A stretch of DNA of 64,000 bases from Acinetobacter sp. XH1741 (lineage in GTDB: Bacteria > Pseudomonadota > Gammaproteobacteria > Pseudomonadales > Moraxellaceae). Positions 10,962 to 62,876 of this stretch are shown here, in pieces. Under the pieces are notes generated by a model. The model was not told the DNA's origin and did not search any database. It saw only the letters and a program-made list of their open reading frames with translations. Position 1 is the first letter of the stretch. Every line of letters starts with the position of its first letter. The translations under genes were made by a program, and so were the position numbers. The stretch is taken from the NCBI RefSeq assembly GCF_041021895.1, contig NZ_CP157428.1, positions 2,914,001-2,978,000 on the forward strand, read 5' to 3'.

Positions 10962-11513
10962 TTAAAAAATAAAAAACCGTTCCACCACCGTATCTCTTTC
11001 ATCCAAACTATTTGAGCTTAAAGCTTGTAGCAGCAAACCATCTATAAGATTTACCACCATGTTGGCATCAAATTTTGGTTCGCGGGTTTCTCCGCTAAAA
11101 ATTAGGTCAAAAATCTCATGGTGCAACCATTTGCGATATTCAACTGCCATGCGGTAGGCCTTCGGGTATACCAGTTTCGTTTCAAAAATGGCCTTAAGTA
11201 ATAAATGGTACAGGCTGTTTAAATGGGTATGTAACACAATAATTTCTTTAATTTTATCTTTTGACGTGTAGTAACGGCTTGAGTAAATGATGGCGAGTAC
11301 TTCTTCTTTGAGCAGACTTTTTTGAAAGACAATACACATTTCAACTAGACCTTCTTTTGAGCCAAAAAAGTTATAAAGCGTGGCTTTGGGTATTTCTGAC
11401 TCTTTCACGATTAAATCGACACCTGCTGTGTGAAATCCATAAGTCGTAAATAGACGAATAGAGGTATCAATAATGTGTAATTTTTTGGAAGAGGTTTCTA
11501 AGTAATTTGGCAT
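10962..11513 (-). CDS. TetR/AcrR family regulator, copy A of a paralogous pair
   Basis: From the ATG at 11513 the product is 183 residues. The helix-turn-helix is HTAGVDLIVKESEIPKATLY followed by NFFGSKEGL, the TetR pattern. It is clearly paralogous to the regulator at 40490-41050, sharing GF-H-GVD-IVKE-E--K-T-YN-F-SK and the -LL-KA-FETK--YP-A distribution. The open frame extends to 11618, but that part is the conserved untranslated leader (11562-11637) shared by both copies, so 11513 is preferred. Immediately before both starts is the conserved TTATAACGGTAAAA. Upstream and divergent lies a C4-like RNA element. Confidence 0.85.
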   Translation of the reverse strand: MPNYLETSSKKLHIIDTSIRLFTTYGFHTAGVDLIVKESEIPKATLYNFFGSKEGLVEMCIVFQKSLLKEEVLAIIYSSRYYTSKDKIKEIIVLHTHLNSLYHLLLKAIFETKLVYPKAYRMAVEYRKWLHHEIFDLIFSGETREPKFDANMVVNLIDGLLLQALSSNSLDERDTVVERFFIF

Positions 11514-11561
11514 AGTTTTACCGTTATAAAATTCTTGTTGTATGGATATGAGAAAAAAGCC

Positions 11562-11637
11562 TGTGCCCTTTTTGGGAGAAAAAAAGGCACAGCAAAGCCG
11601 CAAGACGGTGCTTGGCACATCTCAAGTTTTGTTGTTG
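11562..11637 (-). promoter_or_regulatory. Conserved leader upstream of TetR copy A
   Basis: About 76 bp are nearly identical to the leader of TetR copy B (41104-41179). It contains GTGCC/GGCAC arms (plus-strand 11563-11567 and 11586-11590) able to form a hairpin around a T-rich loop, and a second GTGCCAAGCAC self-complementary segment. In both copies it can be read as a short peptide beginning MCQA and continuing G-F-A-V-P-F-F-L-P. An attenuation or leader-peptide role is inferred from conservation only. Confidence 0.55.
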
Positions 11638-11804: not shown

Positions 11805-11885
11805 ATGGTGGCAGAACGAAAGGGGTTCGCAGACTGGCTTCAAGAGACCCAGCACACCCGAAGGTGTCCCCCTCCGTTCCACCAT
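11805..11885 (+). ncRNA. C4-like antisense RNA, copy A
   Basis: The element folds as a cloverleaf. The outer stem ATGGTGG (11805-11811) / CCACCAT (11879-11885) continues with AACG/CGTT and AGGGG/CCCCT. Inside are a CTGG/CCAG hairpin and an ACACC-CGAA-GGTGT hairpin. As in the C4 antisense RNAs of phages P1/P7, two internal segments are complementary to downstream DNA: 11828-11846 with 11932-11951, and 11854-11874 with 11887-11904. A second copy at 41352 keeps both the fold and the complementarity although the bases differ. Calling it C4-like rests on this architecture; no covariance-model search was run. It should act in trans or cis by pairing with its target leader. Confidence 0.7.
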
Positions 11886-11886
11886 A

Positions 11887-11990
11887 GAGGGGGCGCGAGG
11901 GTGTACACACTAAAAGAAGAATCTTTTAATGCTCTTGAAGTTCGGTCTGCGACGACCGACTGGCAATGTAGGCCAGCAGGCAAAGAATAG
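11887..11990 (+). other. C4 target segments and conserved mini-ORF end, copy A
   Basis: This holds the predicted target segments b (11887-11904) and a (11932-11951) of the C4-like RNA. One frame ends here in RSATTDWQCRPAGKE before TAG at 11988; the same position in copy B encodes RSAKTDWQYRPACKG before TAA. The C-terminal pattern RSA-TDWQ-RPA-K is thus preserved in both, although the upstream frame is not, so a short peptide may be the regulated product. Confidence 0.5.
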
Positions 11991-12218
11991 TGTCCAAGTC
12001 ACATGTAGTCAAGCACACAAAATGACATTTGTTTTAAATTAGATCATTAAAAAGTAAAGATAAATAATGAATGAGTTATTGTTAAGGAGGGGTTTATAAA
12101 TTATTTATATAAAACTCAGTATATATGCCTAGTAAAAGCTTATTGTTTACTTTAGCTTGAGTACGAATAATATATTTTTGATAACTATTAAATTTACGTG
12201 ATTTATATAAGGATTATT

Positions 12219-33342: not shown

Positions 33343-33428
33343 ACTTCTTTGCACAGTGCGTTTTTAACTGTGCATTTTATTTTAAATATAAACAACAATT
33401 AATATAAAACCATTAGAATTAAAAAAGT

Positions 33429-33458
33429 AAAAAGCTCCTTTTCATTAAGGAGCTTTTT
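33429..33458. terminator. Bidirectional terminator
   Basis: AAAAAGCTCCTT-TTCATT-AAGGAGCTTTTT: a perfect 12-bp stem with T tracts on both strands, between the DUF2171 gene (plus) and the convergent permease gene (minus). Confidence 0.85.
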
Positions 33459-33490
33459 ATTTATATGGTTAAAATTTTAATTTAATATTT

Positions 33491-34888
33491 TTATAAATTA
33501 CTCTGATTTATTGCAACCGCTCTGGTTGCTTTACGCTTTCGGGTCACAAATAACCCGCAAACCACGACTCCTAAAGTCACACCTAAAGATAAAGTGGTTT
33601 CATAACTATAGGCTGGCGATAAGAACATATACGCGAGCACACTTAAAATAATAATAATCACAAACCACGTAAGCCATGGAAACAACCACATTTTAAATGG
33701 AATTTCCGCTCCAACTGCTTCTAACTTATGTCTTAAGCGTAATTGTGAGAACGCAATAACCAAGTACACCAGCAAAGCAATAGACCCTGTGCTTGAGAGC
33801 AATAGACCAAAGATTTTCCCTGGGAATACATAGTTAATAACACAGCACACCAGCCCAATAAACGTTGAAGCGAACACTGCAATGGCAGGCACACCGGCAT
33901 AATTCACCTTAGTGACGGCCTGTGGCGCTTCATTACGTGTGCCTAAACGAAATAACATACGAGAAGACGTATAAATTGCAGCATTCATACAACTCGCCAC
34001 GGCGATAAATACGACCGTATCAATGATGAGCTTAGTACCCGGTACGTTTAAGCTCATTAAAACATATTGGAATGTCCCGTATTTCTGTAAGTCTGGTGAA
34101 CGCCAATCGACCAGCGAAACGGCAATAAACATTGAAACCACAAAGAAAAGAATAATACGGTACAGCACCAAGTTGGTGGCACGTCTAATTTTCTGTTTAG
34201 GGTTTGATGACTCGGCTGCGGCAATGGAGACAATTTCTACCCCAAAAAATGAAAATGCCGTAATTAAAATGGCAGATAAAACGCCTCCCATACCGTGCGG
34301 CATAAAACCTGCGTTATTGTATAAATTGGCAACGCCACTGACATTTTTAGCTAAAGGCCAAACACCTGAAATTGCCAAAATACCAATAATGATAAACCCA
34401 ATAATGGCAACTACTTTGACTAAAGAAAACCAGAACTCAAACTCACCAAAACTTTTGGTACTAAAAAAGTTGGCCAAGCTTAGGAACACAATAAAGCAAA
34501 ATGCATAGATAGAAACCGAAACGCTCGGAAACCACGAATGTAAAATTTCAGCACCAGCAATGGCTTCGACCGGAATCGCGAGTACCCAAAACCACCAATA
34601 TAACCAACCAATGGTAAAGCCTGCCCACGGGCCAATTGCTTTACGGGCATATGTAGAAAATGAACCAGTGTCCGGCTCTAAAACGGCCATTTCACCTAAC
34701 ATGCGCATCACCAGAAAAACCATAATACTGGTAATCAGGTAAGCAAGAATCACTGCGGGGCCTGCCTTGGCAATTGCAGAAGATGAACCGACAAATAAAC
34801 CTGCACCAATAACACCGCCAATACTAATCATTGTGATATGGCGATTTGAAAGTCCTTCGCCTAATTTTTTTGTTCTATCATTATTCAT
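33491..34888 (-). CDS. Amino acid permease of the AAT/GabP type (probable beta-alanine or GABA uptake)
   Basis: The 465-residue protein has twelve predicted membrane segments. It carries the APC/AAT-family opening LGEGLSNRHITMISIGGVIG then AGLFVGSSSAI, plus GPAVILAYLITSIMVFLVMR and MLGEMAVLEPDTGSF. The IAAAESSNPKQKIRRATN loop also matches. GabP-like permeases import GABA and beta-alanine by proton symport. It lies next to mmsA and a class III aminotransferase, which fits uptake of a beta- or omega-amino acid. A terminator hairpin between it and mmsA implies partly separate transcription. Confidence 0.88.
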   Translation of the reverse strand: MNNDRTKKLGEGLSNRHITMISIGGVIGAGLFVGSSSAIAKAGPAVILAYLITSIMVFLVMRMLGEMAVLEPDTGSFSTYARKAIGPWAGFTIGWLYWWFWVLAIPVEAIAGAEILHSWFPSVSVSIYAFCFIVFLSLANFFSTKSFGEFEFWFSLVKVVAIIGFIIIGILAISGVWPLAKNVSGVANLYNNAGFMPHGMGGVLSAILITAFSFFGVEIVSIAAAESSNPKQKIRRATNLVLYRIILFFVVSMFIAVSLVDWRSPDLQKYGTFQYVLMSLNVPGTKLIIDTVVFIAVASCMNAAIYTSSRMLFRLGTRNEAPQAVTKVNYAGVPAIAVFASTFIGLVCCVINYVFPGKIFGLLLSSTGSIALLVYLVIAFSQLRLRHKLEAVGAEIPFKMWLFPWLTWFVIIIILSVLAYMFLSPAYSYETTLSLGVTLGVVVCGLFVTRKRKATRAVAINQSNL

Positions 34889-34953
34889 ATTTCATTCCTT
34901 AAAAATATATCCATCAAAACAATCTATTACATGTTTAAAATCCTACAGTCATG

Positions 34954-34979
34954 AAAAAGGGAAAACCTCATGTTTTCCC
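34954..34979 (-). terminator. Rho-independent terminator after mmsA
   Basis: On the minus strand GGGAAAAC (complement of 34972-34979) and GTTTTCCC (complement of 34959-34966) form an 8-bp stem with a 5-nt loop, followed by five T residues. It sits between mmsA and the permease gene. Confidence 0.75.
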
Positions 34980-34992
34980 CTTATGGTAATTA

Positions 34993-36561
34993 TTAATTTA
35001 AAGTCGGCATTGAAAATTGCTTTGCTTCACGGACTTGAGCCGATGGCCAACGCTGGGTAATGGTTTTACGGCGTGTGTAGAAACGGACACCATCTGGACC
35101 ATAAGCATGTAAGTCACCAAACAACGAACGTTTCCAACCACCAAAGCTATGGTAAGCCACAGGAACTGGTAACGGCACATTAATCCCAACCATACCGACT
35201 TGAATATGGTTACTAAAATAACGTGCCGCTTCCCCATCACGGGTATAGATACAAGTACCATTACCATATTCGTGGTCATTAATCAGTTGCATGGCTTCTT
35301 GCATGGTATCTACACGCATAACTTGCAGTACAGGGCCAAAAATTTCTTGCTGATAACTGGTCATGTTTGGTGTGACTTGGTCAATTAAAGTTGGGCCAAC
35401 AAAGAAACCTTTTTCATAGCCTGCTGGTTTTGCATCACGGCCATCTACCACAATTTTCGCACCTTGCTGTTCTGCACTTTGAATATAAGCTTGTACTTTG
35501 TCTTTATGCACTTGCGTAATGAGTGGACCAAAGTCGTTGCTTGCATCTGCATAGTTGCCGAACTTCAATTTTTTCATTTCCTGAGTCAGCTTATCAATCA
35601 CTACATCGGCAACTTCATCACCAATCGCAACTGCCACCGAAAGTGCCATACAACGTTCGCCTGAAGACCCGAAAGCCGCGCCTAACAAGGAAGTCACCAC
35701 GTTATCAATATCGGCGTCAGGCATGATAATGGCATGGTTTTTAGCGCCGCCTAATGCTTGGCAACGTTTACCTGTTGAAGTCGCTGTACGATAAATATAT
35801 TCAGCAATTGGCGTCGACCCTACAAAGCTGACTGCCTGTATACGAGGATGATGCAATAAAGCATCTACCGCTTCTTTGTCACCATTGACCACATTAAACA
35901 CGCCGTCAGGTAAGCCCGCCTGTTTTAATAACTCTGCAAGGTATAAAACCACAGAAGGCGCTTTTTCAGAAGGTTTTAAAATAAAGCAGTTACCGCAGAC
36001 CAGCGCCATCGGGAACATCCATAGCGCCACCATGGCAGGAAAGTTAAATGGTGTGATGCCAGCCACAACACCTAGCGGCTGGAACTCGCTCCATGAGTCG
36101 ATATCAGGGCCAACATTTTTTGAAAACTCACCTTTTAAAAGCTCTGGTGCGCCGCAAGCATATTCAACATTTTCTATACCGCGTTGCAATTCACCTTGAG
36201 CATCATGAGAAATTTTACCGTGCTCTTGTCCAATCAAAGCGCAAATCTTTTCGGCATTTTGCTCTAATAATTGTTTGAACTTGAACATAACACGCGCACG
36301 TTTAATAACTGGCGTATCTCGCCATGCAGGAAATGCTTGCTCGGCTACCTGAACTGCTTCATTTACCGTTTGCACATCTGCAATTTCGACTTCTTTCGTA
36401 ATTTCACCCGTCGCAGGATTGTAAACTGGCTGTTTTTTTGCCGATTTAGAGACAATTCTTCCTTGAATGAAATGCCCTAGCACTTTTTTGGCTTGTTCAC
36501 TATGCGTATCGTTTTCAGTTGAAACGTCGTCATAGCTAAAATTTTCTAGGCCATTCGTCAT
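34993..36561 (-). CDS. mmsA: CoA-acylating (methyl)malonate-semialdehyde dehydrogenase
   Basis: The 522-residue protein is an aldehyde dehydrogenase of the MmsA type: an N-terminal VLGHFIQGRIVSK, NPATGEITKEVEIA, EFQPLGVVAGITPFNFPAMV, and the catalytic cysteine in FGSSGERCMALSVAV. IQVGMVGINVPLPVPVAYHS near the C-terminus is diagnostic of MmsA. It converts malonic or methylmalonic semialdehyde plus CoA and NAD+ to acetyl- or propionyl-CoA with loss of CO2. It lies 107 bp downstream of an omega-amino acid aminotransferase gene; together they fit beta-alanine degradation. The N-terminus is about 20 residues longer than usual. Confidence 0.92.
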   Translation of the reverse strand: MTNGLENFSYDDVSTENDTHSEQAKKVLGHFIQGRIVSKSAKKQPVYNPATGEITKEVEIADVQTVNEAVQVAEQAFPAWRDTPVIKRARVMFKFKQLLEQNAEKICALIGQEHGKISHDAQGELQRGIENVEYACGAPELLKGEFSKNVGPDIDSWSEFQPLGVVAGITPFNFPAMVALWMFPMALVCGNCFILKPSEKAPSVVLYLAELLKQAGLPDGVFNVVNGDKEAVDALLHHPRIQAVSFVGSTPIAEYIYRTATSTGKRCQALGGAKNHAIIMPDADIDNVVTSLLGAAFGSSGERCMALSVAVAIGDEVADVVIDKLTQEMKKLKFGNYADASNDFGPLITQVHKDKVQAYIQSAEQQGAKIVVDGRDAKPAGYEKGFFVGPTLIDQVTPNMTSYQQEIFGPVLQVMRVDTMQEAMQLINDHEYGNGTCIYTRDGEAARYFSNHIQVGMVGINVPLPVPVAYHSFGGWKRSLFGDLHAYGPDGVRFYTRRKTITQRWPSAQVREAKQFSMPTLN

Positions 36562-36668
36562 TGTTGTTACTCCTTACTACAATTAGTTTTCAGATCAAGC
36601 TGTATTTTTCATTTGGTTTTTAAAGAGCATCTATAGAACTTACCGATGCTCATAAATATCTATAAGCC

Positions 36669-38051
36669 TTAATTCACGTGATAAAGCGCATCGCCCACGG
36701 CATTCAGTAAGCGGTCAATATCAGCCTCTGTGCTGTTAAACATTGGACCGAATTGAAGCGTGTCGCCTCCAAAGCGAACATAGAATCCTTCTTTCCACAG
36801 CTTCATACCAATTTCAAAGCCTCGGATTGTGGCGTCGCCATCACGAGGGGCTAATTGCAAAGCACCGATCAAACCACAGTTGCGAATATCTAAAATGTGC
36901 GGTGCGCCTTTTAAGCCATGTAGCGTTTTTTCAAAACTTGGGGCCAATGCCGCAGATTGAGCCAATAGGTTTTTCTTTTCTAAAACTTCAAGCGCAGCTA
37001 AAGCGGCTGCACAAGCCACGGGATGTGCCGAATAGGTATAGCCGTGAGTAAACTCAATGGCATGCTCTGGTAAATCTTGCTGCATAAAAGCAGAGTAAAT
37101 TTCGCGGCTTGCCACCACTCCACCTAAAGGAATAGCACCATTGGTCACTTGTTTAGCAAAATTCAAAATATCTGGTGTGACCCCAAAATATTCTGCCGCC
37201 GTCCACGTTCCTAAACGGCCAAACCCTGTAATCACCTCATCAAAAATTAACAAGATGTCATGCTGGTCACAGATCTCTCTTAAACGCTGTAAATAACCTG
37301 TTGGCGGTACAATACAACCTGCCGAACCAGAAATAGGCTCCACAATGACGGCTGCAATGTTTGAAGCGTCATGTAGTTCAATTAACTTAAGCATTTCATT
37401 GGCAAGTTCTACCCCACCTGTTTCTGCACAGCCTTTGGTAAAAGTTAAATTTGGCTGCAAGGTATGCGGTAAATGGTCTACATCCATCAGTTGACCAAAC
37501 ATTTTACGGTTACCACCAATACCACCTAGGCTTGTTCCCGCAACGTTTACACCATGGTAACCACGCGCACGACCAATCAATTTGGTTTTGCTTGGTTTAC
37601 CTTTAATACGCCAATAAGCACGTGCCATTTTGATAGCAGTATCGGCTGACTCTGAACCTGAGTTGGTAAAAAACACATGTTGTAGTTTTTCAGGCATATG
37701 CTGAACGATTTTATCTGCCAGCTTAAAAGACAACGGATGACCAAACTGAAAAGCTGGTGAATAATCTAGCTGACCTAACTGAGCACTCACCGCTTGTTGA
37801 ATTTCCGGCAAGGTATGGCCTGCACCACAAGTCCATAAACCTGAAAGTGAGTCATAAATTTCACGGCCCGAATCATCAATCAAATACGACCCTTTTGCGC
37901 CCACAATCATGCGTGGATCTTTGGCAAAGTTTCGATTTGCAGAAAATGGCATCCAATGTGCCTGATAATTTAATTGCATCTTATTATTAGATTGAACTGC
38001 TTCTGAAGCATGCTCAGCGTCGCTAAATTTATCCGTATCAAACATAATCAT
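36669..38051 (-). CDS. Class III aminotransferase (probable beta-alanine:pyruvate aminotransferase)
   Basis: The 460-residue class III PLP enzyme has DSLSGLWTCGAGHTLPEIQQ near the N-terminus, TNSGSESADTAIKMARAYWR (phosphate-binding), LLIFDEVITGFGRLG (Asp for the pyridine N), and LNFAKQVTNGAIPLGGVVAS with the Schiff-base Lys. HGYTYSAHPVACAAAL follows. This set matches omega-amino acid:pyruvate (BauA-type) aminotransferases. Next to mmsA, the likely reaction is beta-alanine plus pyruvate to malonic semialdehyde plus alanine. Divergent from it is a LysR regulator. Confidence 0.9.
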   Translation of the reverse strand: MIMFDTDKFSDAEHASEAVQSNNKMQLNYQAHWMPFSANRNFAKDPRMIVGAKGSYLIDDSGREIYDSLSGLWTCGAGHTLPEIQQAVSAQLGQLDYSPAFQFGHPLSFKLADKIVQHMPEKLQHVFFTNSGSESADTAIKMARAYWRIKGKPSKTKLIGRARGYHGVNVAGTSLGGIGGNRKMFGQLMDVDHLPHTLQPNLTFTKGCAETGGVELANEMLKLIELHDASNIAAVIVEPISGSAGCIVPPTGYLQRLREICDQHDILLIFDEVITGFGRLGTWTAAEYFGVTPDILNFAKQVTNGAIPLGGVVASREIYSAFMQQDLPEHAIEFTHGYTYSAHPVACAAALAALEVLEKKNLLAQSAALAPSFEKTLHGLKGAPHILDIRNCGLIGALQLAPRDGDATIRGFEIGMKLWKEGFYVRFGGDTLQFGPMFNSTEADIDRLLNAVGDALYHVN

Positions 38052-38062
38052 TCCTGTTTATT

Positions 38063-38113
38063 TTCAAATTATGGTTTGAGTGTACATAGCGTGTTAAGTT
38101 TGATAAATTCAAA
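38063..38113. promoter_or_regulatory. LysR-type operator candidates in divergent promoter
   Basis: The 97-bp spacer between the aminotransferase and LysR genes holds TCAAA-N6-TTTGA (about 38063-38079) and TTTGA-N5-TCAAA (38099-38113), both interrupted dyads. LysR regulators recognise such dyads at divergent promoters; assignment is positional. Confidence 0.5.
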
Positions 38114-38148
38114 TTATCTTGAGTTTAGATTTAAAAAAACAAAACTAA

Positions 38149-39066
38149 ATGAAACCTAAAAAATTAAATCAAGTCACTGATTTTGATATAAAACTTCTCA
38201 AAATATTTAAAACGGTTTGCGACTGTCATAGTTTTACATCTGCTGAAAGTATTTTAGGTATTAGCCGCTCTGCAATTAGTTTGCATATGGGTGATTTAGA
38301 AAATCGATTGGGCATTCGACTATGCCAGCGAGGTCGTGCGGGATTTGCCCTGACAGACGAAGGACGAGAAATTTTAGAATATATCGAAGTGCTCACAGCA
38401 GCCATTGAAGACTTCCGCTCTAAAGTCAATCAAATGCATAACCGCCTTAAGGGTGAGTTTAATATCGGCATTATTAACAACCTTGTGACTATGCCTAGGG
38501 GGTATATCACCAACACCTTGACTCAACTTGCCGAGGAACACGCGGAAGTTATTATTAATATTAGTATGAGCACCCTTTCAGATATTGAATGCCGCGTGCT
38601 GGATAACCGTTTACATTCGGGCGTTATTCCCCTTGTGACGCCTTTGTCTGGTTTAGACTATTTCGATTTATATAGTGAAAGTTCATTTTTATACTGCGGC
38701 AAAAACCATCCTTTATTTAACCAATGTAGCAGCATCAATTTAAATGAGTTAAAAAAATGGCAAGCGATTCTGCCTAATTATGCCATTACATCGGAAGCGG
38801 CAAAGTTACATCAGCTTTTAGACTGTAAAGCGACTGCAAGTGACCGCGAAGGTATCGCCTTTCTAATTTTAACTGGCAAATTCTTAGGTTTTTTACCCGA
38901 CCACTATGCAAAAAAATGGGTAGAAGATGGTGTGATGCAACCTGTTGCAAAAGACAAAATGCACTACAGCACCCCTATATGCTTAATTACGCATAAAGGC
39001 AAAAACCACAATAATATTTTAAAAACCTTTATGGATATGCTTGAGAAACGAATCAGCAATAATTAA
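38149..39066 (+). CDS. LysR family transcriptional regulator
   Basis: The 305-residue protein has the LysR helix-turn-helix at residues 10-70: FKTVCDCHSFTSAESILGIS then RSAISLHMGDLENRLGIRLC and FALTDEGREIL. A periplasmic-binding-protein-like effector domain follows from about residue 95. It is divergent from the aminotransferase/mmsA genes, so it is the likely activator of beta-alanine catabolism. The effector is unknown (perhaps beta-alanine or a semialdehyde). Confidence 0.92.
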   Translation: MKPKKLNQVTDFDIKLLKIFKTVCDCHSFTSAESILGISRSAISLHMGDLENRLGIRLCQRGRAGFALTDEGREILEYIEVLTAAIEDFRSKVNQMHNRLKGEFNIGIINNLVTMPRGYITNTLTQLAEEHAEVIINISMSTLSDIECRVLDNRLHSGVIPLVTPLSGLDYFDLYSESSFLYCGKNHPLFNQCSSINLNELKKWQAILPNYAITSEAAKLHQLLDCKATASDREGIAFLILTGKFLGFLPDHYAKKWVEDGVMQPVAKDKMHYSTPICLITHKGKNHNNILKTFMDMLEKRISNN

Positions 39067-39312
39067 AAATAGTTATATATAGATAGAAAGATATAGATAA
39101 TTTTATAAACAATGAATCTTTTTATTTAAAAAAACTTCATAATAGAGATTCATAAAAGCAAAGCTTAATATCGCCTATTTAGATAAAAATGACTATTGAG
39201 TATACTCCAGTCTACTTAATATTTAATAAATATCATTTAACGACCTGTTTTTAATAAATAAAAAATATATAATCACGCCCGCAAAGTAAACATAAATACT
39301 TAAGGTTTATTC

Positions 39313-40489: not shown

Positions 40490-41050
40490 TTAACCCCGCC
40501 CTATCTTCAGTAAAAAGTAATCTAAGGCTTTATCTGGTTCCCCCATACCGCTGTTATCTAAAAGCTGGATAATTGCGCCGTCAATCATATATAAAAAGAG
40601 TCTGGCGTCATTAAAAGAAGCATCTTTTTTTAACTGTCTGAGCTGGCTATAAATTTCATTGGTAAGCCACATTCTATATCTCACCGCGGTCTGAAAAGCA
40701 TTTGGATAACTGGTTTTAGTTTCAAAAAGTGCCTTAAATAATAAGTAATATGGCCCTTCTAAATCGGTATGTAAGTAATAAAGTTTCTTAAGTTTATCTG
40801 TGGCGACTGTGTGATGATCATACTCGATCATTTCAATTACTTGGTCTTGGAGTCGTTCTTTTTGCACGATTAGACAGATATCAATGAAGCGTTGTTTAGA
40901 GTGAAAATAGTTATAAAAGGTCATTTTTGTGACTTCTGTTTCTTTCACTATTTTGTCGACACCGACTATGTGAAACCCACCGTGATGAAACAGATGAATC
41001 CCTTTATTTACAGCTTGTAAGGCACGTGTTGAGAGAACTAAATTTTGCAT
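40490..41050 (-). CDS. TetR/AcrR family regulator, copy B of a paralogous pair
   Basis: From the ATG at 41050 the product is 186 residues. The helix-turn-helix region reads HIVGVDKIVKETEVTKMTFY then NYFHSKQRF. It is paralogous to the regulator at 10962-11513 along its whole length. The open frame extends to 41167 through the conserved leader, but the family-like sequence and the TTATAACGGTAAAA context before the ATG set the start at 41050. As in copy A, a C4-like RNA element lies divergently upstream. The ligand and target are unknown. Confidence 0.85.
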   Translation of the reverse strand: MQNLVLSTRALQAVNKGIHLFHHGGFHIVGVDKIVKETEVTKMTFYNYFHSKQRFIDICLIVQKERLQDQVIEMIEYDHHTVATDKLKKLYYLHTDLEGPYYLLFKALFETKTSYPNAFQTAVRYRMWLTNEIYSQLRQLKKDASFNDARLFLYMIDGAIIQLLDNSGMGEPDKALDYFLLKIGRG

Positions 41051-41103
41051 ATTTTTACCGTTATAAAATAAATTTTTGTTGTTTCTCAATGAAATAAAAA
41101 AAC

Positions 41104-41179
41104 TGTGCCCTTTCTGGGAGAAAAAAAGGCACAGCAAAGCCGTAAGACTGTGCTTGGCACATCTCAAGTTTTATTGTTG
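41104..41179 (-). promoter_or_regulatory. Conserved leader upstream of TetR copy B
   Basis: Nearly identical to 11562-11637. It contains GTGCC (41105-41109 on plus) and GGCAC (41128-41132) hairpin arms and, on the coding strand, a short reading frame starting MCQAQSYGFAVPFFLPERAQ that ends in TAA just before the TetR ATG. In copy A the corresponding frame runs into tetR. This suggests a translated leader peptide; the function is not known. Confidence 0.55.
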
Positions 41180-41273
41180 ATGCAATTTTTTTGAGCCGTA
41201 ATGACTTAAAGCCTGAAAAGCTAATAGCCCTTCAAACTGTTTAAAGATGATTTAAGTTGTGTCGTTATAGCTT

Positions 41274-41290
41274 TTGGCAATGGCTGCCAA
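41274..41290. promoter_or_regulatory. Inverted repeat TTGGC-N7-GCCAA, copy B
   Basis: TTGGC (41274-41278) and GCCAA (41286-41290), with the same spacing as at 11725-11741 but a different centre. It may be an operator or promoter part for the C4-like transcript. Confidence 0.5.
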
Positions 41291-41351
41291 GAAATAATGA
41301 ATGTACAAAGCCAACTCCTTTTTATTGGGAGTTCTGCCAGACATTAAAATT

Positions 41352-41434
41352 ATGGTGGCAGAACGAAAAGGGGTTAGCAGACTGGTCAAACGTGGCCAGC
41401 ACACCCGAAGGTGTCCCCCTCCCGTTCCGCCGCA
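41352..41434 (+). ncRNA. C4-like antisense RNA, copy B
   Basis: The same cloverleaf as copy A. GGTGG (41354-41358) pairs with CCGCC (41427-41431), including one G-U where copy A has A-U. A CTGG/CCAG hairpin and the ACACC-CGAA-GGTGT hairpin follow. Segment 41374-41384 pairs with 41491-41501 (11 bp, one wobble) and 41386-41393 with 41481-41488 (8 bp perfect). These bases differ from copy A, yet pairing is kept. The b' segment 41401-41421 is only partly matched by 41435-41452. Same C4 (phage P1/P7) inference as copy A, not tested against a covariance model. Confidence 0.7.
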
Positions 41435-41538
41435 GAGGGGGCACGAGGGCACAACACTAAAAGTATGAAACTTTTAATGTACGTTTGATGCGGTCTGCTA
41501 AAACCGACTGGCAATATAGGCCAGCATGCAAAGGATAA
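41435..41538 (+). other. C4 target segments and mini-ORF, copy B
   Basis: Holds the predicted b (41435-41452) and a (41481-41501) target segments. An ATG at 41488 opens a 16-codon frame, MRSAKTDWQYRPACKG, ending at 41538. Its body matches the end of the reading frame in copy A (RSATTDWQCRPAGKE). The start overlaps target segment a, where RNA pairing would block translation. Confidence 0.5.
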
Positions 41539-41835
41539 TAGTCACTCTATTTGTCGTCAAGCACAAAAAGTGACAACTGTTTTAAAATAAATCAGTCAAA
41601 GTATTTGATAAATCAGTGGGTTTTAAGATGAACTACAAAATCTACGGGTAAAGTGAGAGGTTGTTATTTCTATAGATTTTTTAAAAATAATTGAGTTCAG
41701 CAATAAACAGATAGAGCTAATTTATGCAGTACCTAATTAAAATGAATATGAAAAATAAGCCTCTTACTCGTAGTTGGCTTGAGGCTTGGTAAATTCATCT
41801 CAATAGCACCTGTTTAAAGATGCTACACAAAATAA
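41539..41835. other. Intergenic region
   Basis: Nearly 300 bp without a credible gene. AAGCCTC (about 41758) and GAGGCTT (about 41782) form a loose inverted repeat that may terminate the minus-strand gene at 41836. No promoter or RNA gene is evident beyond the end of the C4-like cassette. Confidence 0.4.
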
Positions 41836-43219: not shown

Positions 43220-43681
43220 TTAATGAATCACAAAATCCTCAGGTTCTGAGTTTAAATCAAGCAATCTTTTTGATTCCTTTAAATAGATATCCAATATTTC
43301 CTTTGAAACAAACACTCTTAATTTTGATTCATAATTATAATTCATGATATTGCTAGATAGAATATACAAAAATATATAAATCTCATTATTAGAAACATCC
43401 TCTCCTTTGTTTATTACTTCAATTCTCAGTGAATCACTATTAATTAACTGATCCAAAAATTCAGTTAAACAATCTGAAAAACCATCTGGACTTGCACCAA
43501 AATAAGATGTATTTTCAGTTAAAATAGTATTTATATAATGGTATTTATTATATATTTCCTTACCAAAATAGGAATAAATTTCATAAATTGTTTTTAGTGT
43601 ACTATCAACTTTTAAAACTAACTCATTACTACATTCATAATCTTCAGCACCAAAAAGGCTATATAATTTTTTTCTACTCAA
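43220..43681 (-). CDS. Hypothetical protein, immunity-like, paralogue of 46042-46509
   Basis: I choose the TTG at 43681 because GGAG sits 6 nt before it and because it aligns with the ATG of the paralogue; a GTG at 43693 overlaps that GGAG. The product has about 153 residues. It shares with 46042-46509 the middle YFG--PDGF-DCLT-- pattern and an almost identical tail, SKEILDIYLKESKRLLDL then DFVI. The shared tail is also highly similar at DNA level. Probably an immunity protein of the CDI-type locus; family not recognised. Confidence 0.65.
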   Translation of the reverse strand: MSRKKLYSLFGAEDYECSNELVLKVDSTLKTIYEIYSYFGKEIYNKYHYINTILTENTSYFGASPDGFSDCLTEFLDQLINSDSLRIEVINKGEDVSNNEIYIFLYILSSNIMNYNYESKLRVFVSKEILDIYLKESKRLLDLNSEPEDFVIH

Positions 43682-44108
43682 TTTCCGCTCCACTTTAAAA
43701 AACTTTATTAGGCTAACAGTTTATCTAACCTGCAAATAGGCTATATATTCAGTATGATGAACTGATTCAATTTACAAATTCAGCTAGATAACTTTATTGA
43801 AGTGTCACATAATCTAACCCTTTATCGATAGCATTTGCTTTTGACATAATATTCCCACTAGCACTGTCAGTGTTTTAGTTATCGCATACTCTTGTCATAC
43901 GCAGCTTTTGCAGCCATTAAAAGAGCGAAATAAAATAGAAAATCTATTTTTAGCTTAATCAAAGAAACATACCATTTGGTCATAAGCAAAGCTCGAAGTG
44001 CGCAGGTTATTTAGCGTGGATTATACATCTTTATGTGCTTATCAGTTGTGTCATCAAAATAAGCCAATAATTCGTCTTATGCGAACATTGGCTTAAGCAA
44101 AATTTTGA
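43682..44108. other. Spacer with a possible toxin or coding remnant
   Basis: No intact gene. On the minus strand at about 43794-43870 a frame reads NTDSASGNIMSKANAIDKGL ending DYVTLQ before a stop, with nearby frames giving KAAYDKSMR. This looks like the decayed 3' end of a larger gene, perhaps an orphan toxin tip between immunity genes, but it is too short to name. Confidence 0.35.
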
Positions 44109-46041: not shown

Positions 46042-46509
46042 CTAATAAATAACAAAATCATCATCATGTGTATCTAAATCAAGCAATCTTTTTGATTCCT
46101 TTAAATAGATATCTAATATCTCTTTTGAAATATAAACTTTTAGCCTTGAGTCATAATCATAAGAAAGCATAGCAATTGCTATAGCATTTAAAAATAAAAA
46201 AAGTTCTTTATCTGTTACTCCTTCACTTTTACTCAATATCTTTAAGCACAACATTACATTCTTATTTCTTAAATTCAAATAATCAGTTAAACAGTCAAAA
46301 AATGCATCTGCACTAGTACCACCAAAATAATATTTATTGCCGGAAAATATAGGATTATCATATGGATAATCCTTATAAACATGCTGACCAATATATTCAG
46401 TAATATCACCAATAAAATTCAACGATCTGTCAATTATAACTTCTATAATCGGTGTATTTATCTCTTGATATCCTGCACAAAAAAAAGTGAACAACTTTAG
46501 TTCACTCAT
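46042..46509 (-). CDS. Hypothetical protein, immunity-like, paralogue of 43220-43681
   Basis: The ATG at 46509 has GGAG 9 nt upstream; the more distal TTG at 46524 overlaps that site. The product is about 155 residues with KYYFGGTSADAFFDCLTDYL and the tail SKEILDIYLKESKRLLDL then DFVI, nearly the same as in 43220-43681, while the N-terminal half differs much more. It is bounded by two similar hairpins, giving it a cassette look. Probably an immunity gene for a lost toxin tip. Confidence 0.68.
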   Translation of the reverse strand: MSELKLFTFFCAGYQEINTPIIEVIIDRSLNFIGDITEYIGQHVYKDYPYDNPIFSGNKYYFGGTSADAFFDCLTDYLNLRNKNVMLCLKILSKSEGVTDKELFLFLNAIAIAMLSYDYDSRLKVYISKEILDIYLKESKRLLDLDTHDDDFVIY

Positions 46510-46540
46510 TTTTATTTTCTCCAAGTATTTCTAATTCAAT

Positions 46541-46853: not shown

Positions 46854-49800
46854 TCAATGACTTAGTAGTCCACCTTGGCTGCCACTATGAGTATTAATTA
46901 AATCGTGACTTTGTGTATCAATACTTAGAACATTATTCGTTTGAATAAGCCCTTGATCATTATTTAAGGTACCAGAACGAATATTCGCGGTATCAGCACT
47001 GATTAGACCTTGTTTATTATTCAATTCTTGTAACTCGGTATCAATATCTAAAATTTGCCGAGCAATAATCTGTCCTTGATTATTATTTAGTCCTGAAGCA
47101 TGAATATTAATATGCTGACCAGAAAGCAAAGACCCAGATTGATTATTTAGAACCTGATCCCCCATCTCCAGATTCAGGCTTCCCGCGACGCTACCAATTT
47201 GGCCTTGGGTATTATTTAAACCATGGCTTGTTAAAGTAATGTCCTGATTAGCTGTAATTGCCCCAGTCTGATTATTTAAAAGACCTGTAGTTTGTAATGT
47301 AGCCTGACCTTGAGCACTGATCTTCCCAGATAGTGAATTATCAATTGATGCCGCATCTATAATGAGGTCTTGACCTGCCTGTAATAATCCAGCTTGGTTG
47401 TTTAAAATTAAATTCCCCACCTGCAGAGTCAAATGCCCTTGTGTTCCAATTTGACCTTTCTGGTTATTGAGACCCTGGCTATTCACCTGAATCCCCTGAT
47501 CTGCTGAAATCACACCTTGGGTATTGTTCACTTCTTGCTGGCTTTGTAGATCAATCTTCGCCTGCGACGTCATCTGGCCTGCCGTGCTGTCAAGTGACAA
47601 GGCCTTAACACTTAAATCTGTTTTTGACTGTAATAGTCCAGACTGGTTAACCACAGCCTGATTACCTGCATCAACAGATAACCCACCCTGAATACTGCCG
47701 ATCTGGCCTTGACGGTTATTTAAGCCCTGACCCGTCAAGCGAATGTTCTGGTTGGCAACCAGGCTGCCAGCTTCGTTATCAATCAGGTCTGCACTGATGA
47801 TATTCAATGCATCTTGGGCACTGATTTGTCCTTGCTGGCTGTTATTGACCGAACTTGCATTGAGTTGAACATTTGCACCGCCATAAATTTGTCCAGACTG
47901 GTTATTTAGTGCTTCACGAACTGTTAAATTTAGGTCCGCCTGCTCACCTGTCTGTATCACACCAGACTGGTTACTTAAGTTCTGGCTGCTTACCTCTAGT
48001 TGTTTGTTCGACAACAGCTTCCCGTGGTCATTCGTCACATCGTCCTGACTATTTAATGTCAGTCGATCCAGAGCACTAATTACGCCACTGTTATTTAAAC
48101 CGTTCACATCAAGCGTCAGGGTTTTCCCTGACTGGATAGCACCTGAACCATTATTCAAGGATAAGCCACCCGTCTGAATCAGTAAATCACCTTGTTCTGT
48201 ACCGATCTGACCGCCACCATTTTGTAAGCCCTGACTCTTTAACACCATCTGCTGGGTTGAAACCATTACGCCTTGGGCATTATTAATGCCTTGTACGGCA
48301 TCAATGTTCAATACACCCTGTGCATTGATCTTGCCCTGATCATTATTTTTAACCGAACCCGCCTGAATAGCCGTGTTCCCGCCACTGTACACTTGCCCTG
48401 ACTGGCTATTATCAAACAGGCCACTCAGCTTAAAGTTCAGATCTGCTCCACTTTGCAGTAAACCACCCTGATTGATAAGGTCCTGCCCAACAAACGTTAA
48501 CGCGCTACCCGAAATAATCTGGCCCTTGTTGTTATTCAGCCACTCTGGCTGCATATCCAGCTTGGCCTGCGTTGCAATCAGACCTGACTGGTTATCAATC
48601 CCTTGCGCTTTTAAGGTCAAATCCTGACTAGACTGGAGCTTGCCTTGCTGGTTACTTAATACCCCTGTACCGGCATCAATAGTAACCGTACCTTCAACAC
48701 TGCCTATCTGCCCTGCATTGTTCGTCAGACCCTGACTGCTTAGCTGTATCGCCTTGTTCGCAATGATCTGGCCTGAACTGTTATCTATGTCCTGACCAAC
48801 TGTCGCCTCTATCGAACCTTGGGCATTGATCAAGCCCGACTGGGTCTTTAACTGGCCCGCCTGAACCTTGATGTCCTTACCTGACTGTAAAGCGCCTGAC
48901 TGGTTGCTCAATACCCCTGTACCAGCATTTAGAACCAGCTGATCCTTGATACTCGCGATCTGCCCCTGATTGTTATTCAGCCCCGAACTCTTGATCTGTA
49001 CCGCATTATTGGCAACGATCTGTCCTGCTGTGTTGTTCACCAGCTGTTGTGATTGAAGTTCAATCCCTTCTTCTGAACTGATTAATCCTGACTGGCTATT
49101 CACCTGCTCAGCAATAAGCTGCAGATTGCCTTGAGCCTGTAATACCCCAGACTGGTTATCTAAAATGCCTGAACCACTGTTGATGCTTAATACATCATGG
49201 AGACTTGCAATTTGACCATGGGTATTATTAAGTCCTTGGCTATTTAAGTTAACTTGCTGGTTTGCAGCAATCACACCTCTGTCATTATTAATATCTTTGC
49301 CCGTGCTGATTGTTAACCAGTCCTGACTGTTAATTTGTCCCTGTACACTGTTGTCCAGCTGATCTGCATTAAGCTGTAAGCTCTGGCCTGCAATGACCTT
49401 GCCGGTTTGATTACTCAATACCCCCTGGCCTGCATTCAGCACAATATTGCCTTGGGCACTGGTGATTTGGCCTGAATTATTATTGAGACCCTGGCTATTC
49501 ACCTGAATCCCCTGATCTGCTGAAATCACACCTTGGGTATTATTCACTTCTTGCTGGCTTTGCAGATCAATCTTCGCCTGTGAAGTTATCTGGCCTGCCG
49601 TGCTGTCAAGTGACAAGGCCTTAACACTTAAATCTGTTTTTGACTGTAATAGTCCAGACTGGTTAACCACAGCCTGATTACCTGCATCAACAGATAACCC
49701 ACCCTGAATACTGCCGATCTGGCCTTGACGGTTATTTAAGCCCTGACCCGTCAAGCGAATGTTCTGGTTGGCAACCAGGCTGCCAGCTTCGTTATCAATC

Positions 49801-50378
49801 AGGTCTGCACTGATGATATTCAATGCATCTTGGGCACTGATTTGTCCTTGCTGGCTGTTTGTTAAAGCATTGACTTGCAGATTCAAGGCTGCACCACTTT
49901 GAATACTGCCAGCATGGCTATTGTCTAAGGTACCATTGACTACAACATCCAAGTCCGAGCCTGCTCCAGACTGCATTACACCAGACTGGTTACTCAAGTT
50001 CTGACCTATAACTACAAGATGACCATTTGATGCAATTTGTCCAGACTGATTACTAATGTCCCCAGTACTTGTAATTGTGTTATTACTCAGCGCAACTATA
50101 CTGCCCGAGTTATTATTTAAATCACCACTAGTGATATTTAGATCAGTTCCTGCCTGTAAAGAACCTGACTGGTTAAGGAGTTGCTTTTGACCGACGTCGA
50201 TCTTCAATAAGCCATGAGCACTACCAATTTGACCCTGACTATTGTTCAGGCCTTGGCTATGCATTCCAACATCCTGATTAGCAACCATAATCCCTGATTT
50301 GTTATCAATCGCCTGTACAGCATCAATATTCAATACACCCTGTGCATTGATCTTGCCCTGATCATTATTTTTAACCAA
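46854..50378 (-). CDS. Filamentous haemagglutinin (TpsA/CdiA-like), C-terminal part after a frameshift
   Basis: This 1,174-codon frame continues the giant gene at 50330-60400 after a shift by one base near 50386-50398. Its apparent TTG start (MVKNNDQGKINAQG) is simply where the frame opens; the same residues stand inside the repeats (GSVKNNDQGKINAQGVLNID). It consists of 20-25-residue haemagglutinin repeats of the form LNN--GQI-S----L-L-A. It stops at GSQGGLLSH with no pretoxin, DUF637, VENN or toxin domain. Either a broken 3' half or a sequencing artefact splits one gene of about 4,500 codons. Confidence 0.8.
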   Translation of the reverse strand: MVKNNDQGKINAQGVLNIDAVQAIDNKSGIMVANQDVGMHSQGLNNSQGQIGSAHGLLKIDVGQKQLLNQSGSLQAGTDLNITSGDLNNNSGSIVALSNNTITSTGDISNQSGQIASNGHLVVIGQNLSNQSGVMQSGAGSDLDVVVNGTLDNSHAGSIQSGAALNLQVNALTNSQQGQISAQDALNIISADLIDNEAGSLVANQNIRLTGQGLNNRQGQIGSIQGGLSVDAGNQAVVNQSGLLQSKTDLSVKALSLDSTAGQITSQAKIDLQSQQEVNNTQGVISADQGIQVNSQGLNNNSGQITSAQGNIVLNAGQGVLSNQTGKVIAGQSLQLNADQLDNSVQGQINSQDWLTISTGKDINNDRGVIAANQQVNLNSQGLNNTHGQIASLHDVLSINSGSGILDNQSGVLQAQGNLQLIAEQVNSQSGLISSEEGIELQSQQLVNNTAGQIVANNAVQIKSSGLNNNQGQIASIKDQLVLNAGTGVLSNQSGALQSGKDIKVQAGQLKTQSGLINAQGSIEATVGQDIDNSSGQIIANKAIQLSSQGLTNNAGQIGSVEGTVTIDAGTGVLSNQQGKLQSSQDLTLKAQGIDNQSGLIATQAKLDMQPEWLNNNKGQIISGSALTFVGQDLINQGGLLQSGADLNFKLSGLFDNSQSGQVYSGGNTAIQAGSVKNNDQGKINAQGVLNIDAVQGINNAQGVMVSTQQMVLKSQGLQNGGGQIGTEQGDLLIQTGGLSLNNGSGAIQSGKTLTLDVNGLNNSGVISALDRLTLNSQDDVTNDHGKLLSNKQLEVSSQNLSNQSGVIQTGEQADLNLTVREALNNQSGQIYGGANVQLNASSVNNSQQGQISAQDALNIISADLIDNEAGSLVANQNIRLTGQGLNNRQGQIGSIQGGLSVDAGNQAVVNQSGLLQSKTDLSVKALSLDSTAGQMTSQAKIDLQSQQEVNNTQGVISADQGIQVNSQGLNNQKGQIGTQGHLTLQVGNLILNNQAGLLQAGQDLIIDAASIDNSLSGKISAQGQATLQTTGLLNNQTGAITANQDITLTSHGLNNTQGQIGSVAGSLNLEMGDQVLNNQSGSLLSGQHINIHASGLNNNQGQIIARQILDIDTELQELNNKQGLISADTANIRSGTLNNDQGLIQTNNVLSIDTQSHDLINTHSGSQGGLLSH

Positions 50379-62411: not shown

Positions 62412-62485
62412 TGGCAGAGGATCAAGGACTCGAACCTTGACGAACGGTTTTGGAGACCGTCATGCTACCATTACACCAATCCTCT
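62412..62485 (-). tRNA. tRNA-Gly (TCC), copy 1
   Basis: The 74-nt cloverleaf is on the minus strand: acceptor AGAGGAT/ATCCTCT, D-loop TGGTGTAATGGTAGCA, anticodon loop CTCCAAA (anticodon TCC, glycine) and T-arm GGTTCGAGTCC, with encoded CCA. Confidence 0.93.
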
Positions 62486-62518
62486 ATATATACAATTAAA
62501 CCCTTTAGATTTAATCAT

Positions 62519-62550
62519 AAAAAAAGCAAGATCATCGTCTTGCTTTTTTT
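62519..62550. terminator. Hairpin between tRNA-Leu copy 1 and tRNA-Gly copy 1
   Basis: AAAAAAAGCAAGA-TCATCG-TCTTGCTTTTTTT, a perfect 13-bp stem with T tracts on both strands, located just after tRNA-Leu copy 1. It may separate the two halves of the cluster into two transcripts. Confidence 0.75.
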
Positions 62551-62552
62551 AA

Positions 62553-62637
62553 TGGTGGGGGCGAAGAGACTCGAACTCTTACACCTTGCGGCGCTGGAAC
62601 CTAAATCCAGTGCGTCTACCAATTTCGCCACGCCCCC
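62553..62637 (-). tRNA. tRNA-Leu (TAG), copy 1
   Basis: The 85-nt cloverleaf is on the minus strand with a long variable arm: acceptor GGGGGCG/CGCCCCC, anticodon loop TTTAGGT (anticodon TAG, leucine), T-arm GAGTTCGAGTCTC and encoded CCA. Confidence 0.93.
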
Positions 62638-62664
62638 ATCTGGGACATTTATTTAAAATAAATG

Positions 62665-62738
62665 TGGCAGAGGATCAAGGATTCGAACCTTGACGAACGG
62701 TTTTGGAGACCGTCATGCTACCATTACACCAATCCTCT
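62665..62738 (-). tRNA. tRNA-Gly (TCC), copy 2
   Basis: The same 74-nt structure as copy 1, with a single difference in the T-loop region (GGTTCGAATCC). Encoded CCA present. Confidence 0.93.
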
Positions 62739-62791
62739 TCCAAGATTTAAATGACTTAACATTCAAATCAACTTTAAGTCTTAACTTAAAG

Positions 62792-62876
62792 TGGTGGGGG
62801 CGAAGAGACTCGAACTCTTACACCTTGCGGCGCTGGAACCTAAATCCAGTGCGTCTACCAATTTCGCCACGCCCCC
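62792..62876 (-). tRNA. tRNA-Leu (TAG), copy 2
   Basis: Identical 85-nt tRNA-Leu to copy 1, upstream on the minus strand, with its own encoded CCA. The order Leu-Gly-Leu-Gly shows a tandem duplication. Confidence 0.93.

Follow-up and report, generated by a model that had tools for sequence, protein, structure and literature searches.

C4-like antisense RNA leaders of Acinetobacter sp. XH1741 carry self-matched, locus-specific codes and precede a subfamily of TetR-type regulators

C4 is an antisense RNA of phages P1 and P7 (RF01695, with c4-a1b1, RF03163), and the P1 GenBank record names a2 and b2 as the repressing targets of C4, with a1 and b1 entered as putative ones. P4 CI RNA and Gifsy-1 IsrK are likewise processed antisense RNAs that act on their own leaders; in the available sections of PMC4825925, P4 CI RNA is described as base-pairing with its own leader at two sites, one on either side of itself, and so stopping transcription early. 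C4 has been reported in Acinetobacter (available sections of PMC5320573 and PMC2864571). As described in the available sections of Weiss et al. (2016; PMC5320573), the Group 1 small RNAs of A. baumannii AB5075 are a multi-copy, C4-like family with an upstream hairpin, Region 1, and a processed C4 part, for which strong reads start at GGW; those sections neither recognise the Region 1 area as an a1b1 target nor describe own-site pairing or a link to TetR, and the string 'tetr-' occurs once in PMC5320573, inside 'tetraloop'. A further group, the TTTRs, are related TetR regulators at scattered sites that are independently active (Perez-Varela et al. 2022; PMC9802203, available sections): overexpression of eleven TTTR genes turns opaque AB5075 cells translucent, a related pseudogene is present, and the genes switch on at random and in different combinations with little cross-regulation. 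The words 'antisense' and 'ABUWs' are absent from PMC9802203, and our literature search, with subscription papers and preprints mostly outside its scope, found no paper linking C4 to these TetR regulators.

The element studied here, copy B, lies on the minus strand of the window (the whole 64,000-nt stretch of Acinetobacter sp. XH1741 that was analysed; feature positions below refer to it). Its C4 RNA (41351..41437) scores 63.5 bits against RF01695, above the cut-off of 45. Upstream, a promoter match (41532..41560; TTGACG, 17 nt, TATCCT) fits the consensus; alone it is not above chance (1 found versus 1.7 expected in shuffled sequences), and its −10 region is kept across an alignment of 101 elements from five genomes. 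It is followed by the Region 1 hairpin (41508..41525), which is also kept in that alignment and whose loop is one base off the published Group 1 consensus. The hairpin lies within a full-length RF03163 match (41487..41538; E 0.00057) that at 24.7 bits remains below the cut-off of 46.7. The targets a1 (41491..41501) and b1 (41481..41488) come next, then a predicted spacer hairpin (41454..41480) and the C4 RNA with b' (41386..41393, a hypervariable position in the alignment) followed by a' (41374..41384). Downstream are a leader ORF with a TTG start and 18 codons plus stop after an AAGGAG site (41252..41308), two overlapping terminator-like hairpins (41102..41144; 2 found versus 0.6 expected in shuffles, and also returned by a script), and a TetR-type regulator (40490..41050; PF00440 on ORF 40490-41167, with 41050 as our chosen start). 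A P1-form a2b2 at the downstream ribosome site was not found in copy B (a2 5/7, b2 3 contiguous pairs), and the antirepressor gene of a P1 immI-type operon is not downstream of it, TetR_N (PF00440) being there instead.

The four long-range segments that a first-pass annotation had proposed for copy B are exact to the base. On the minus strand, b1 and b' form 8 contiguous Watson-Crick pairs, and a1 forms 10 of 11 pairs with a', the single mismatch being C opposite A, which takes on the appearance of a G-T pair only in a plus-strand reading. Both matches in this order arose in 1 of 200,000 sequences generated by a dinucleotide model fitted to the upstream 125 nt. The two-part target has a single occurrence in the whole genome, in its own leader; two loose matches considered as other targets were rejected, one being within a coding frame and neither at a start codon. 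The other element in the window, copy A, has the same strand and parts: a promoter (11984..12012, consensus match; alone not above chance, 2 found versus 2.0 expected), a1 (11943..11953), b1 (11932..11940, 9 contiguous pairs with b'), a C4 RNA of 79.1 bits against RF01695 (11804..11889) containing b' (11838..11846) and a' (11826..11836), both read from the sequence like a1, two overlapping terminator-like hairpins (11561..11602; 2 found versus 0.7 expected in shuffles) and a TetR-type regulator (10962..11513; PF00440 on ORF 10962-11618, start 11513 chosen).

The XH1741 leaders are like those of P1 and P7 in that the copy B C4 fold exceeds the Rfam cut-off, the order is a1, b1, C4 and leader ORF, and the P1 a' allele TGTCAA is common to many XH1741 copies. 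Unlike them, the XH1741 C4s are chromosomal, number about 20 and have differing codes, and their cargo is a TetR gene or a small protein gene rather than icd-ant; copy B has no a2b2. P4 CI RNA and Gifsy-1 IsrK, likened here by description, differ in being single phage loci. The nearest named loci, in a search from which records of this genome or very close ones may be missing, are those of A. nosocomialis and A. seifertii. Positions 33400-39067 of the window share 91.0% identity with two A. baumannii chromosomes that are catalogued as plasmids; XH1741 probably belongs within the A. calcoaceticus-baumannii complex, to a species other than A. baumannii. Chromosome-like records filed as plasmids include NZ_CP104448, NZ_CP064203 and NZ_CP077849.

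The XH1741 genome holds 23 C4s above the RF01695 cut-off. Under stricter filters, C4 is present in 101 of the 119 Acinetobacter genomes searched; 12 of them, XH1741 included, carry 15-26 copies and the remaining C4-positive genomes 1-10. An order-level search found C4 in 44 of 293 genomes, and outside Acinetobacter four of the five matching genomes of genus g57 (G265, G329, G369, G407) each carry at least 13-14 C4s. The same is seen in one genome of genus g73 (G288), and the parsed loci of g57 and g73 have both a1b1 and a2b2, as in the canonical type. RF03163 was listed at E ≤0.5 for 8 of 20 XH1741 loci, none above the cut-off. Tandem arrangements also occur, with four C4 matches within 0.7 kb in G008 (C1:2707289-2707979) and four within 0.6 kb in G082 (C1:255601-256181).

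The paired differences between copies A and B that the first-pass annotation had pointed out extend through this family. In 22 of the 23 XH1741 copies, b1 and the b' of the same copy form 6-10 contiguous Watson-Crick pairs (mean 7.86 versus 3.68 for non-cognate combinations), and a' pairs with its own a1 over 7-10 bases (mean 8.64 versus 5.71); neither mean was reached in 100,000 permutations. The exception, c10, is a decayed copy (G000 C1:287237-287323) without a1. The 22 copies share five a' alleles and have 20 distinct b' arms. We then enlarged the sample to five genomes (XH1741 plus four others, from which 80 of the 81 regions planned were included), which gave 108 elements; seven were dropped, four without a readable a' and three without an a1 of at least 8/11, leaving 101. 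The a1 allele fits the a' allele in 97 of these, and 48 of 55 distinct b' arms, each represented by one element, form at least 6 contiguous pairs with their own b1, as against 4.6% of foreign b1 sites. The remaining seven arms form 3-5 pairs with their own b1, and some of these reflect doubtful a1 calls. With one representative per b' arm, the excess of compensatory change was present and the mean was again unreached in 100,000 permutations. Variation along the aligned leaders is greatest in b1 and b', and very little is seen in the C4 core or the Region 1 hairpin. Copies A and B by themselves could not have proved selection for pairing, as had been claimed, since a whole leader can be exchanged in one piece; over the larger set that claim is supported. 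At the level of sequence comparison, covariation between target and RNA in the family of copy B is real.

Codes were then compared at fixed chromosomal sites. The copy B locus aligns with loci of A. nosocomialis GNU001 and A. seifertii over 3.9 kb including both flanks (88-89% identity). A second A. nosocomialis locus matches it at 84% across 3.3 kb, from the leader onwards in the downstream direction. In an A. baumannii chromosome the match is 81% in the element and 91% in the downstream flank, and the intervening gene is absent. At this site the code is TGCTAA (a') with ACGTTTGA (b') in XH1741, TGCGAA with CTCGTTTGA in the A. nosocomialis and A. seifertii loci, and CGTCAA with TCTATGA in A. 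baumannii; in each case the locus's own a1 and b1 match, such that sister species have different, self-matched codes at one site, and a single-base paired change is among the differences. Across 41 flank-assigned comparisons at 16 loci, 34 changed code, of which 28 were still self-matched at 6 or more pairs; assignment rests on both flanks in 7 comparisons and on one flank only in 34 of the 41, and therefore some comparisons may involve paralogues. Where both flanks agree, four comparisons changed code and three of the four were still self-matched. Paralogues that exchange whole leaders can spread existing codes, but such exchange does not generate a multitude of matched ones. The literature already has C4, a1b1 and the multi-copy family; a private, changing code for each locus was not found in print.

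Recognition of its own target by each RNA, the orthogonality proposed from copies A and B, is upheld by predicted energies without being absolute. The predicted duplex energies are −22.4 kcal/mol for B on B and −13.9 for B on A, and −27.2 for A on A and −13.4 for A on B. Over the XH1741 copies the predicted mean is −24.1 kcal/mol for cognate versus −13.9 for non-cognate duplexes, with the own target best in 20 of 22; those not ranked first are c01 and c07, and c01 and c03 have the same code. When only contiguous pairs are counted, 14 of 22 copies have their own b1 as the single best partner, and 18 have it as best or tied. An earlier energy matrix (whole arms, 125-nt windows) was noisy and put the own target first for 6 of 23 b' arms and 12 of 23 a' arms, although its means were reached in 0 of 20,000 permutations; it was replaced by the position-restricted tests given above. 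Of 12 pairs of copies with alike b', 10 differ in a'. Active avoidance of shared codes within a genome was not significant (2 the same versus 3.26 expected, P=0.33). Most copies are thus predicted by these models to be insulated, and selection on insulation itself is not supported by the avoidance test.

The a2b2 pair at the ribosome site of the leader ORF is present in 23 of 101 copies, intermediate in 33 and lacking in 45, copy B among the last. These 45 keep a self-matched b1 (29 arms, mean 7.07 versus 3.77, 0 of 20,000 permutations). In other genomes a2b2 was found in 33 of 34 parsed best-scoring C4 loci, a sample of one locus per genome biased to strong matches, from which 14 of 48 loci were dropped. 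Retention of a1b1 independently of a2b2, as read from these 45 of 101 copies, was not found in print. A leader ORF was found in 84 of the 101 copies, 44 of the 84 having 18 residues. Terminator-like hairpins precede the cargo in 36 of 66 TetR-type copies, in 0 of 22 'lipo' copies and in 1 of 13 unclassed copies; these cargo classes rest on motif and length only, and the cysteine motif occurs in 14 of the 22 'lipo' entries. PF00440 was found in the TetR cargo of both window copies and of all seven others scanned. The alternative cargo is a small lipoprotein-like protein without a Pfam match in the three members scanned, and its relatives are hypothetical proteins, almost always from Acinetobacter where an organism is named.

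In the genomes compared, the linkage to TetR is to one subfamily. With a threshold of E 1e-30 or better, all 63 genes of this subfamily in four genomes (16/16 in G000, 15/15 in G008, 18/18 in G053 and 14/14 in G004) are preceded on the same strand by a C4 at a distance of 150-900 nt; the count includes the c17 TetR, which is in two pieces, one partial G053 TetR and one G004 C4 of 42.0 bits, under the cut-off of 45, and leaves out five weaker G000 TetR rows, which have no C4 nearby by coordinates. The C4-to-TetR distance is 360-424 nt, the exception being c10, which lies 726 nt before the c01 TetR. By comparison, C4 was upstream of none of 12 more distant TetRs (E 1e-22 to 1e-14). Outside the multi-copy genomes, all seven subfamily members (E <1e-40), from six genomes, have a C4 above the cut-off. 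This strict linkage between C4 and one TetR subfamily, as it appears in the genomes compared, was not found in print.

We then placed the TTTRs relative to the Group 1 RNAs on an AB5075 chromosome whose length we take to be 3.972 Mb. Coordinates were interpolated from gene numbers with one anchor, ABUW_2969 (PMC5320573). Ten TTTRs and the pseudogene ABUW_0939 interpolate to a mean of 10.3 kb from 11 distinct Group 1 C4 small RNAs in the published table, versus 115 kb for random placement (0 of 100,000), and in a circular-shift check 8 of 1,986 shifts did equally well, with the optimum at −6 kb. ABUW_0222, 22 kb from the closest small RNA in the table, was left out; ABUW_0220, two numbers away, resembles Group 1 according to the available sections of Weiss et al. 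(PMC5320573). By interpolated gene number, the C4-linked TetRs may be the TTTR regulators of the A. baumannii opacity and virulence switch, on evidence that is strong but indirect.

The anatomy, the self-matching by paired change and the linkage to a TetR subfamily are read directly from sequence. Copy B is probably one of a set of domesticated, phage-derived C4 leader cassettes, in which a self-repressing leader would hold its own regulator off. Such a cassette would consist of a promoter, the a1b1 target, the C4 RNA, a short leader ORF, often terminators, and a cargo gene, most often for a TetR. The leader would be transcribed steadily and C4 excised from the transcript; RNase P-like processing of the AB5075 Group 1 RNAs is reported as read coverage in the available sections of PMC5320573. 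Once free, C4 would use a' and b' to bind a1b1 in newly made leaders of its own locus, and most of these transcripts would then stop, or remain untranslated, before the TetR gene. Because nearly every locus has its own code, each regulator would be held off separately, and a cell short of one C4 would let that single gene through; separate codes would let each regulator be released alone, as reported for the TTTRs. Counted against a self-repressing leader are the findings that by contiguous pairs the own b1 is the single best partner in only 14 of 22 copies, that only 36 of the 66 TetR-type copies have the hairpins, and that the U-run terminator of canonical elements is not recognisable between b1 and C4; this reading does not account for the heritable ON state or the role of SrvS. 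An activator RNA described in the literature, SrvS, which derives from the aadB leader of p1AB5075, was considered as a C4 decoy and rejected: the last 260 nt of the aadB leader showed no excess pairing with the 23 XH1741 leaders (mean longest match 7.57 versus 8.1 in shuffles).

The step at which a leader would stop may differ between canonical and Acinetobacter loci. All nine parsed non-Acinetobacter canonical loci have a U run between b1 and C4, and when the chain is cut at that run a terminator-like hairpin folds in seven of nine; P1 has a similar run and did not fold so. On account of the U run and this hairpin, C4 binding at a1b1 could stop canonical transcription early. A U-run terminator between b1 and C4 was recognisable in 0 of the 101 copies (T runs of at least 5 in 35 of 101), and with a hairpin that has no recognisable terminator at the site, a stop at the terminators that precede the TetR gene, or loss of leader translation, is more likely there. 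The loci with a U run between a1b1 and C4 are P1 (L192 2256-2343), L075, L076, L078, L079, L082, L084, L090, L092 and L093; the run often follows a terminator-like hairpin that competes with another one immediately after b1, an attenuator-like arrangement that could be tipped by C4 binding.

The same sequences could be explained otherwise. A folding switch acting only in cis, in which a1b1 pairs with a' and b' of the same molecule and blocks C4 folding and processing, with no action in trans and codes that drift neutrally in matched pairs, seems to us unlikely while deserving some weight, since the long a1b1:b'a' helix is close to the C4 fold in predicted energy in all copies and is preferred in the best fold of 15 of 22. 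Copy B itself, however, favours the C4 fold (−63.3, against −59.8 when the helix is imposed), the existence of 20 distinct b' arms in a single genome is left unexplained by cis pairing alone, and P1 C4 acts in trans (available sections of PMC8546580). With a self-repressing leader, this same-molecule pairing, being almost as stable as the C4 fold, may instead set C4 output. Weiss et al. (2016) suggested free-standing small RNAs adapted to regulate other chromosomal mRNAs; their report, in its available sections, describes Group 1 RNAs as abundant in AB5075 and variable in the a' and b' parts (PMC5320573). This variation is mirrored by the adjacent a1b1, and outside its own leader XH1741 has no start codon with an exact copy of the two-part copy B target, the only one searched, which leaves a role of that kind very improbable.

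That chromosomal C4s serve as an immunity repertoire, silencing incoming phages or plasmids with a matching a2b2 and varying their codes in an arms race, would suit the canonical C4 as an immunity RNA, the Acinetobacter plasmids with C4 loci, the canonical C4 before a Rha-like gene and the fast variation of codes. We nevertheless consider it very improbable, given a cargo of host-type TetR or small protein that is C4-linked in every case examined, and given the 45 copies that keep a1b1 without a2b2. Phage leaders might also be relics, spread by duplication and gene conversion, matched through block movement and under no present selection; identical codes do recur across species and before different cargo, and decayed or tandem copies exist. 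But block exchange, which can spread arms, does not create 55 different ones with 48 self-matched, and the core is conserved while the paired loops vary, down to the single-base paired change at the copy B site, all of which makes relics the least probable explanation, one we regard as barely credible. The self-repressing leader remains our preferred reading. A wider version of it, which we offer only tentatively, is that a phage immunity RNA may have been turned into about 20 largely insulated antisense locks with hypervariable two-part codes, each holding one TetR master switch off, such that chance loss of one lock would let one regulator fire and change colony type and virulence. If true, it would provide a testable cause for the random, separate switching of about a dozen A. 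baumannii TetR regulators. The C4 a1b1 site, only putative in the P1 record, here gains natural evidence of selection in its own right, and the C4 family is a natural collection of many antisense pairs that differ in specificity.

Several further observations concern the cargo and the surroundings of copy B. A phage origin of the TetR gene through a match to PHROG 21633 was considered and rejected, as the 15 listed of 27 phage records are one contig set resembling misfiled bacterial DNA; these 'Acinetobacter phage MD-2021a' contigs reach 378 kb. Plasmids of A. ursingii, A. soli and A. johnsonii (L094-L096) have C4-like leaders before operons of hypothetical and CAP-domain proteins, and the gene that follows one canonical C4 is the Rha-like one. 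Beside copy B, a large ORF with haemagglutinin-like repeats (window 46854-50378, −) is succeeded by small ORFs, and by eye the arrangement resembles a contact-dependent inhibition region; two of the small ORFs after it, 43220-43693 (−) and 46042-46524 (−), have a common C-terminal stretch. At 62415-62876 (−), the window contains two pairs of near-identical tRNA genes in alternating order.
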